In this document: positions 31,938-34,184 of the stretch, piece after piece | How positions within the stretch are numbered: position 1 is the first letter of the stretch | Layout of the letters: the number at the start of each line of letters is the position of its first letter | Assembly: GCA_000989305.1 (NCBI GenBank) | Contig: LBTB01000002.1 | Location: forward strand, 1-40,410 | Source of the DNA: Candidatus Shapirobacteria bacterium GW2011_GWF2_37_20 | Lineage (GTDB): Bacteria; Patescibacteriota; Microgenomatia; UBA12405 | Reading direction: 5' to 3' | DNA: 40,410 nt | The notes under the pieces: generated by a model | The model's input: only the letters and a program-made list of their open reading frames with translations | Databases searched by the model: none | Told to the model about the DNA's origin: nothing | Made by a program: the position numbers and the translations under genes

Positions 31938-32912
31938 TTACTTATCATCTTTCTTTTGATGCCACTTCCAAGCCGTAGCTACTATTTCTTCAATCTCCGT
32001 ATATTTTGGACTCCAACCCAGCTCCTTTCTAATTTTTTCAGAGGAGGCAATCAAAATTGGTGGATCTCCAGGCCTTCGTTCAACTTCCAAAACTGTGAAT
32101 TCCTTTTCTGTCACTTTTTTAACGGCATCAATTACTTCCCTGACTGAAAAACCCTTACCATTACCCAAATTATATTGCTTAGACTCGCCCCCATCCATCA
32201 AATGTTTCAAAGCCAGTAAATGAGCTGATGCTAAATCAACCACGTGGATATAATCCCTAACACAGGTACCATCTGGAGTAGGGTAGTCAGTTCCAAATAT
32301 TTTAATATTTTCTCTCTTGCCAATAGCCGCATCAAGAATTAATGGAATCAAATGTGACTCTTGAGCATGGTCTTCACCTATATCTGCCTCATCATTGGCT
32401 CCACAAGCGTTGAAATAACGTAAAGCCACATATCGAAGCCCGTAGGCCACATCATAATCCGCAAATACCCTTTCAATCATTAGCTTAGTCCAACCATAAG
32501 GATTAATTGGCCATTGGGGATGAACTTCATCAATTGGAGTGTATTTTGGTTCTCCAAAAGTTGCCGCAGTTGAGGAAAAGATAATCTTGTTTACTTCAAA
32601 TTCCTTCATCACTTTCAAAAGATTAAGAGTATTTACCAAATTATTAAAATAATATTTTTGTGGATCTTTGACTGATTCACCTACTTCAATGAAAGCCGCA
32701 AAATCAAAAACCGCCTCAATCTTATATTTCTTAAAAACACCCCGAATATCCTCTAAATTATTTAAATCCCCCTGAACAAATTCACCCCATTTTGTCGCCT
32801 CTTTGTGACCTGAAACCAAACTATCAAATACAACCGTTTGGAAACCGGCCTCGTTTAACTCTTTGTTTATTTCTGAGCCGATATATCCGGCACCTCCGAC
32901 TATTAATATCAT
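31938..32912 (-). CDS. galE: UDP-glucose 4-epimerase
   Basis: MILIVGGAGYIGSEINKELNEAGF; FDFAAFIEVGESVKDPQKYYFNN; NPYGWTKLMIE; RYFNACGA; GTCVRDYIHVVDLASAHL. Confidence 0.96.
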   Translation of the reverse strand: MILIVGGAGYIGSEINKELNEAGFQTVVFDSLVSGHKEATKWGEFVQGDLNNLEDIRGVFKKYKIEAVFDFAAFIEVGESVKDPQKYYFNNLVNTLNLLKVMKEFEVNKIIFSSTAATFGEPKYTPIDEVHPQWPINPYGWTKLMIERVFADYDVAYGLRYVALRYFNACGANDEADIGEDHAQESHLIPLILDAAIGKRENIKIFGTDYPTPDGTCVRDYIHVVDLASAHLLALKHLMDGGESKQYNLGNGKGFSVREVIDAVKKVTEKEFTVLEVERRPGDPPILIASSEKIRKELGWSPKYTEIEEIVATAWKWHQKKDDK

Positions 32913-32946
32913 GGTCTCAGTATAACAAAGAAAAACTATTTCTCAA
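32913..32946 (-). promoter_or_regulatory. galE promoter embedded in the metK 3' end
   Basis: Minus strand TTGAGA (32946-32941), 16-nt spacer, TATACT (32924-32919), GAGACC, ATG. Confidence 0.5.
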
Positions 32947-34033
32947 TTTGTTCCCAAGGATATTTTGCGTTTCCAAAATGACCATATTTGGCCGTTTGAG
33001 TAAAAATTGGTCTTTGTAAGTCAAATTTATTAATAATTCCCTGCACCGACAAATCCATCAAATTCCAAACGAAATTATTAATAGTTTTTAAGTCCTCAAC
33101 TTCGCTTCCAAAAGTATCAATTGACTTGCTTACTGGATCACGAACCCCAATTGCATACGCCAATTGCACCTCACAGCGTTTAGCCAACCCTTTGGCGACT
33201 ACATTTTTTGCTAAATACCTGGCTGCATATGCGCCACTTCTATCAACCTTTGTCGGATCCTTTCCGGAAAAACACCCACCACCAATTCTCCCCATTCCCC
33301 CATAAGTGTCAACCACAATTTTTCTTCCGGTAACTCCGGAATCAGTCGAAGGTCCTCCTCTTTCCCATCTTCCGGTACCATTAAAAATTACCTTATCTAT
33401 TCCTATCTCAAAACCACGTTCTGCTAACACCGGAACAACTACTCTGTTATAAAAATATTTTTTATAATCGATTTCCTTTTCATAATCCAAGGGTTTTGCC
33501 AAAACCACCTTATCCACCCCGACTACTTTCCCCTTTCTATAACTTACCGTGACTTGTGACTTCCCGTCAGGCCTAATCCAATCTTCCTTTATTTCTAACT
33601 CATCCATCTTTTTGCATAATTTATGAGCCAAAACTATCGGCAAAGGCATCAATTCACTCGTTTCGTCGGAGGCGTAACCAAACATCATTCCTTGATCTCC
33701 AGCACCCTCATTGTCCACCCCCAGTGCTATATCAGCCGACTGTTGATGAATATAAACTTCAACCGGGGAATAGTCGCCAAAATTTAAATATTTCTTATCA
33801 TAACCAATTTCATTTATCATCTTTCTTGCCACCCCTTCAAAATCAATCTTTTGCTTACACGTCACCTCACCCGCCATTACTATTTTATTAGTGGTCACCA
33901 AAGTTTCCACCGCCACTCGTGATTTTTTATCTAAGCGTATTGCTTCATCTAACACTGCATCGGAAATTTGGTCACAAATTTTATCAGGATGACCCGCCGA
34001 TACCGACTCGGAAGAAAATTGGGAATAGTTCAT
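32936..34033 (-). CDS. metK: S-adenosylmethionine synthetase
   Basis: SSESVSAGHPDKICDQISDAVLDE; GAGDQGMMFGYA; GGPSTDSGVTGRKIVVDTYGGMGRIGGGCFSGKDPTKVDRSGAYAARY. SD AAGGA 5 nt upstream of ATG. Confidence 0.98.
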   Translation of the reverse strand: MNYSQFSSESVSAGHPDKICDQISDAVLDEAIRLDKKSRVAVETLVTTNKIVMAGEVTCKQKIDFEGVARKMINEIGYDKKYLNFGDYSPVEVYIHQQSADIALGVDNEGAGDQGMMFGYASDETSELMPLPIVLAHKLCKKMDELEIKEDWIRPDGKSQVTVSYRKGKVVGVDKVVLAKPLDYEKEIDYKKYFYNRVVVPVLAERGFEIGIDKVIFNGTGRWERGGPSTDSGVTGRKIVVDTYGGMGRIGGGCFSGKDPTKVDRSGAYAARYLAKNVVAKGLAKRCEVQLAYAIGVRDPVSKSIDTFGSEVEDLKTINNFVWNLMDLSVQGIINKFDLQRPIFTQTAKYGHFGNAKYPWEQIEK

Positions 34034-34139
34034 ATTTTTCCTTTTTAATTAATAAGGCCTGTCTTTTAAATATTTCTATTTAAAAAGGCACCGTAAACTT
34101 TTTGAGTCTCGGTTGCCATCCCGAATTTATTATCAGGAC
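34034..34139 (-). promoter_or_regulatory. Structured metK 5' leader (candidate cis-regulatory RNA)
   Basis: Minus strand: GTCCTGA..TCGGGAT hairpin (34118-34139); GGC..CCGAGACT-CAAAA-AGTTTACGGTGCC hairpin followed by TTTTT (34087-34117); GCCTTTTTAAATA-GAAA-TATTTAAAAGACAGGC hairpin (34057-34089) sharing 34087-34089 with the previous stem. Confidence 0.5.
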
Positions 34140-34184
34140 TTCTTAACAGTAAAAAATATTAACATAAATAATAAAACAAATACA

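Follow-up and report, generated by a model that had tools for sequence, protein, structure and literature searches.

The metK leader of a small, probably patescibacterial genome as a likely SAM-I/IV-type riboswitch acting on translation

The window, that is, the whole stretch of 40,410 nucleotides analysed here, carries on its minus strand a metK gene identified by three Pfam S-AdoMet_synt matches (N-terminal, 1.1e-34; central, 1.6e-31; C-terminal, 1.7e-60), with its ATG at 34033-34031. The predicted features of the gene and its leader, listed in the direction of transcription, are as follows.

34156..34161 (-), candidate -10 element TAATAT, from the sequence
34145..34149 (-), 5' strand of P1, CTGTT, from the RF01725 alignment, with covariation at base pair 34149-34059
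34139..34144 (-), J1/2, AAGA including G11 of the SAM-I pocket (34142), followed by the A34140-U34118 pair, with G34139 bulged, from the RF01725 alignment
34118..34138 (-), P2 hairpin (hairpin 1 of the initial annotation), without internal loop or kink-turn, double changes in all six pairs
34087..34117 (-), P3 hairpin (hairpin 2 of the initial annotation), SAM-pocket residues GC-AA-CC ... GG-U-GC, invariant motifs and covariation
34064..34085 (-), P4 hairpin (inner part of hairpin 3 of the initial annotation), its 5' arm being the U-run, covariation
34059..34063 (-), 3' strand of P1, GACAG, from the RF01725 alignment and covariation
34040..34057 (-), P5, anti-SD CCUU (34057-34054) paired with the SD AAGG (34043-34040), 16/16 relatives and the MFE fold
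34039..34043 (-), Shine-Dalgarno (SD) AAGGA of metK, GG-AUG spacing 6 nt in the window and 4-7 nt in relatives
32936..34033 (-), metK, S-adenosylmethionine synthetase of 365 aa, the gene presumed to be regulated, three Pfam S-AdoMet_synt domains

An NAD-dependent epimerase gene (GalE-like; Epimerase Pfam, 2.9e-53) lies at 31938-32912 (-), and several relatives have a similar sequence after metK. As it starts only 23 bases after the metK stop, the epimerase may be co-transcribed with metK and share its riboswitch. A divergent pair is found beside metK, encoding Gp49/DUF891 (PF05973; 34113-34553, +) and then HTH_3 (PF01381; 34577-34864, +), an arrangement like that of HigBA toxin-antitoxin systems. 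The listed TTG start at 34113 runs through the riboswitch, and the true start of this reading frame is therefore probably further in. The genome itself, at 0.81 Mb and 96% completeness, has neither ribosomal protein L30 nor L9, both present in most control genomes. Given the ribosomal protein losses known in CPR, this absence fits a Patescibacteria/CPR affiliation, probably Microgenomates-like.

The initial annotation had described three hairpins on the minus strand upstream of metK (hairpin 1, 34139-34118; hairpin 2, 34117-34087; hairpin 3, 34089-34057) and an SD with AAGG at 34043-34040 (AAGGA to 34039), and all of these segments were found where it had placed them. It had, however, missed P1, the pairing of CTGTT (34149-34145) with GACAG (34063-34059) that closes the junction. 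The 120-nt leader (34150-34031) folds with a minimum free energy (MFE) of -32.1 kcal/mol, compared with -16.35 +/- 3.28 kcal/mol in dinucleotide shuffles (z = -4.8); none of 200 shuffles folded as stably, and the stability of the leader is well beyond chance. The MFE fold consists of P1-P5, a closed four-way junction followed by a fifth hairpin. P2, capped by an 8-nt loop, is a simple helix that is continuous except for one bulge. J3/4 measures a single nucleotide in the window, which leaves no room for PK-1.

Transcription might start near 34150, just 5' of P1, from the TAATAT at 34161-34156. Most of the 16 family members have a hexamer resembling a -10 element that ends 6-10 nt upstream of P1, often with a TTGACA 16-18 nt further upstream (L003, L004, L009, L010, and L011). 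No good -35 was seen for TAATAT in the window, and a consensus scan gave no minus-strand promoter there, so this assignment is weak and suggestive only.

The leader had been proposed as a SAM-responsive cis-regulatory RNA in which GGCAACC...GGTGCC resembled the SAM-I/IV core, and a check against the Rfam SAM families had been recommended. In an E-value search of 601 bases, RF01725 (SAM-I/IV riboswitch, “SAM-I-IV-variant”) matched 34154-34024 over the full length of the model (1-99 of 99), with a score of 38.3 bits and an E-value of 1.2e-4, calculated for all of Rfam on the 601 bases. The gathering cut-off of RF01725 is 41.1 bits, which is why standard annotation misses the leader: the Rfam scan of the window at gathering thresholds found nothing, and an RF01725 search of the whole genome did not report this site. 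At the same place before metK, RF01725 was above its cut-off in the relatives L005 (50.8 bits), L012 (47.2 bits), and L014 (45.3 bits), and other related genomes gave weaker SAM-I/IV, SAM-I, or SAM-IV matches; L013 scored best with the SAM-IV model RF00634 (31.5 bits, below 38) and L009 reached 34.7 bits with the SAM-I model RF00162 (below 44.4). Across the bacterial class, RF01725 matched in 42 of 288 genomes, 18 of them over the cut-off. Thirty of these places were taken as loci, and metK was found by tblastn in all except L033, L036, L040, and L050, SAM-I/IV matches with no metK found nearby.

The leader was tied to metK within the family to which this genome belongs. A covariance model built from 15 leaders of that family (R1) matched in 16 of 36 family genomes, each time before metK. 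It was present in all 15 family genomes with metK and in none of the 20 found to lack it; the sixteenth match (G304) is also upstream of a MetK reading frame. The gene is patchy in this family, occurring in 15 of 35 genomes (G001-G034 family set), and many of the genomes without it are more than 90% complete, which suggests that these bacteria take up SAM or depend on a host.

Conservation and covariation of the stems among related metK leaders, the other check proposed at the outset, were found in the 16 family members. CAACC and CGGTGC are invariant in 15/15 family leaders. In the structure-fitted alignment (A4), 92.3% of the pair cells hold a pair, compared with 77.5 in shuffles; double changes occupy 76 cells (27.5 in shuffles), and the covariation score of 0.489 drops to 0.080-0.178 once the pairing is slid. 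A structure-blind MAFFT alignment gave the same picture (88.1% paired; 57 double changes against 23.1; score of 0.383 against at most 0.159). Double changes occur in all six pairs of P2, the outermost P1 pair (34149-34059) is found as UA, CG, GC, and AU, and the pair equivalent to A34140-U34118 is GC in nine members, AU in six, and GU in one. The alignments show strong compensatory change in P1-P4. Taken with the RF01725 match and the metK linkage, this covariation upheld the proposal of a SAM-responsive RNA with a SAM-I/IV-like core. The suggestion that the leader might represent an unrecognised class was dropped.

The CCTT following hairpin 3 had been suggested to pair with the SD, and this pairing, P5, was strongly supported. 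Its four pairs form in 16/16 family members and in the MFE fold; the fourth pair is U-A in 10 members and C-G in six and is never mixed, where arms swapped across members would match at 0.50 only. This switch requires at least five parsimony changes on the MetK tree, two of them forced by well-supported branches. The other three pairs never vary, a constraint imposed by the SD, so a single pair carries all of the covariation of P5. Low complexity also lets a slid P5 pair often. The helix is weak alone, a model with P5 being only 1.6 kcal/mol better, and the fold becomes less clear-cut with 20 more metK bases, where P5 competes with other pairings of the SD. The matched changes in the two arms provide direct evidence, from comparison, that pairing of the SD belongs to the predicted structure.

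Another reading is that the switch depends not on P5 and the SD but on PK-2, a pairing of the P3 loop with the first part of metK. PK-2 belongs to the SAM-I/IV fold, as described by crystal-structure work. PK-2 is also part of SAM-IV (PMC6890682). When the P3 loop was set against the sequence after P5 and partners were permuted, giving p values that ignore relatedness, PK-2 gained support from further families of the class (p = 0.0008). In the family studied here, the true partners did not clearly outperform shuffled ones (p = 0.41 for the longest Watson-Crick run and 0.045 for duplex energy). The best pairing available in the window is -1.0 kcal/mol. Good pairings exist in a few family members (L005, L004, and L008), which had first suggested a PK-2 into metK codons 2-4; this candidate failed the family permutation test. 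A switch based on PK-2 is unlikely for this leader.

Other expression platforms were observed elsewhere in the class, where the SD lies outside P5. In L019, L034, L023, and L041, P5 and the 3' strand of PK-2 overlap the metK start codon and first codons, so that aptamer and coding start are fused. In L031, L032, L033, L047, L048, and L051, PK-2 is followed, immediately 5' of the ATG, by a hairpin that bears a U-run, for example CCUCUC...GAGAGG. The 5' arm of this hairpin is complementary to P1-J1/2 over 9 nt in L048 and L032 and over 8 nt in L033 and L051 (group permutation: p = 0.026 for the Watson-Crick run and 0.12 for energy), which makes P1-J1/2 pairing with this arm a candidate antiterminator in these four loci. 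In L149 (1501-1702), P5 contains a repeat insert of ~60 nt (CGAAGGGTTACAATCCTGAG...) between anti-SD and SD.

Could the fold serve another ligand, such as SAH, or have changed its specificity? With SAM-I pocket positions taken from PMC3764141 and mapped by eye from the alignment, U7, G11, A12, G43, C44, A45, C47, G56, U57, G58, C59, and A87 are kept in the window. The sole listed position that is not kept is A6-U88, here G34147-C34061. A6 and U88 are conserved in SAM-I (PMC3764141), and the carbonyls of U7 and U88 lie near the SAM sulfonium (PMC6914780). The position is G-C in 16/16 family members and A-U in 27/27 other aligned class members (L065 included). A G-C also occurs there in L149, L158, and L161, which belong to other families, and in the Rfam SAM-IV consensus (ggUC...GAcc), ruling out the idea that it is unique to this family. 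Because SAM-IV has this G-C and binds SAM (PMC6890682), the substitution is no argument against SAM. None of the other listed contacts is altered, the gene product makes SAM, and every family member precedes metK, making a different ligand very unlikely.

Hairpin 2 with its TTTTT had been described as terminator-like, and hairpins 2 and 3, which share a GCC, as mutually exclusive. In the corresponding attenuator model, P3 and the UUUUU would form an intrinsic terminator and hairpin 3 the competing antiterminator. Considered alone, the window is compatible with this: the UUUUU is directly 3' of P3, P3 overlaps the clamp of hairpin 3, and elsewhere in the class there are families in which terminator-like hairpins do follow the aptamer. 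The U-run is, however, the 5' arm of P4, whose pairs are 97.1% paired in the family alignment with double changes, and its sequence is not kept, being replaced by CCCCC, CCCAC, UACUU, or CAAAG in relatives. The AA/U of the SAM pocket also lies unpaired within P3, the terminator scan of the window found none at the metK leader, and the covariation of the anti-SD points to translation. We therefore rejected the terminator reading of hairpin 2 and consider attenuation very unlikely. The mutual exclusion of hairpins 2 and 3 is possible in the window but is not conserved across relatives. Hairpin 3 itself held up in its inner part, which is P4 (34085-34064), but its GCC/GGC clamp is incompatible with P3, P1, and P5. 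In isolation, hairpin 3 with the clamp is more stable than P4 alone (-8.4 versus -3.5 kcal/mol), at the cost of these three helices. As read from the alignment, 8 of the 12 relatives with P4 could form the clamp pair 34087-34059. The clamped hairpin 3 might be an alternative state of the leader. It is extremely unlikely that the leader is a conserved structure of another kind, bound by a protein or only setting translation efficiency, as it matches a known SAM aptamer, conserves the pocket, and is confined to the SAM synthetase gene.

The metK leader is thus most probably a SAM-I/IV-type riboswitch of the SAM clan that acts on translation, a reading drawn from sequence comparison in which SAM is the predicted ligand. 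SAM would bind between P1 and P3 and stabilise P1. P1 ends one nucleotide before P5, and stacking of P5 on P1 would be the simplest coupling between them; P5, held by stacking on the SAM-stabilised P1, would hide the SD and lower metK translation. When SAM is low, P1 would open, perhaps through the extended P4 hairpin (GCCU...AGGC), P5 would be lost, and metK would be translated.

If correct, this would be a sub-threshold SAM riboswitch in a small-genome lineage, probably of the Patescibacteria (CPR), that annotation pipelines would overlook; no native riboswitch work in this group was reported in the open literature searched. The way in which the anti-SD arm tracks SD changes across the family predicts a minimal mechanism for turning translation off, and the family shows that the sulfonium-contact pair can be G-C in a SAM-I/IV-like frame. 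More tentatively, the leaders of this family might be a distinct SAM-clan subgroup combining a SAM-IV-type P1, marked by the G-C at the sulfonium contact, with SAM-I/IV-type P2 and P4, with PK-2 lost or unneeded and P5 as an SD lock on P1. Sister families would keep the aptamer on metK with other platforms, either a start codon in P5/PK-2 or a terminator with an arm able to pair with P1-J1/2. One aptamer-gene pair would then have undergone several platform swaps inside one bacterial class.

The core of the SAM clan (P1, J1/2 with G11, and P3 with GCAACC...GGUGC) is present in the metK leader. With SAM-I (S box, RF00162), it shares the ligand-pocket residues of J1/2 and P3, but it has neither the P2 kink-turn nor the L2-J3/4 pseudoknot that mark SAM-I, and its translation platform is in P5. 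The initial annotation had noted the missing kink-turn, which is to be expected as SAM-I/IV RNAs have a P2 without internal loop (PMC2864571). With SAM-IV (RF00634), it shares the G-C at the A6-U88 position and a P5 after P1. SAM-IV, however, has P2a/P2b with PK-1, PK-2, and no P4 (PMC6890682); the metK leader has a single, simple P2 and usually a P4. In SAM-I/IV RNAs there is a single P2 along with a P4, and PK-1 is missing (PMC6890682), as in the metK leader. The leader departs from typical members in its P1 (UGUY...RACA, with G-C at A6-U88, instead of CAUC...GAUG), in using the SD as the 3' arm of P5, in its PK-2, whose pairing in the family is not clearly above that of permuted partners, and in the absence of P4 from 4 of the 16 family relatives. 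It nevertheless shares with RF01725 the P1-P2-P3 core, the GCAACC...GGUGC pocket, a P2 without internal loop or PK-1, a P4 between P3 and P1, a P5 just after P1, and a position that, for most RF01725 hits in the class, is upstream of metK.
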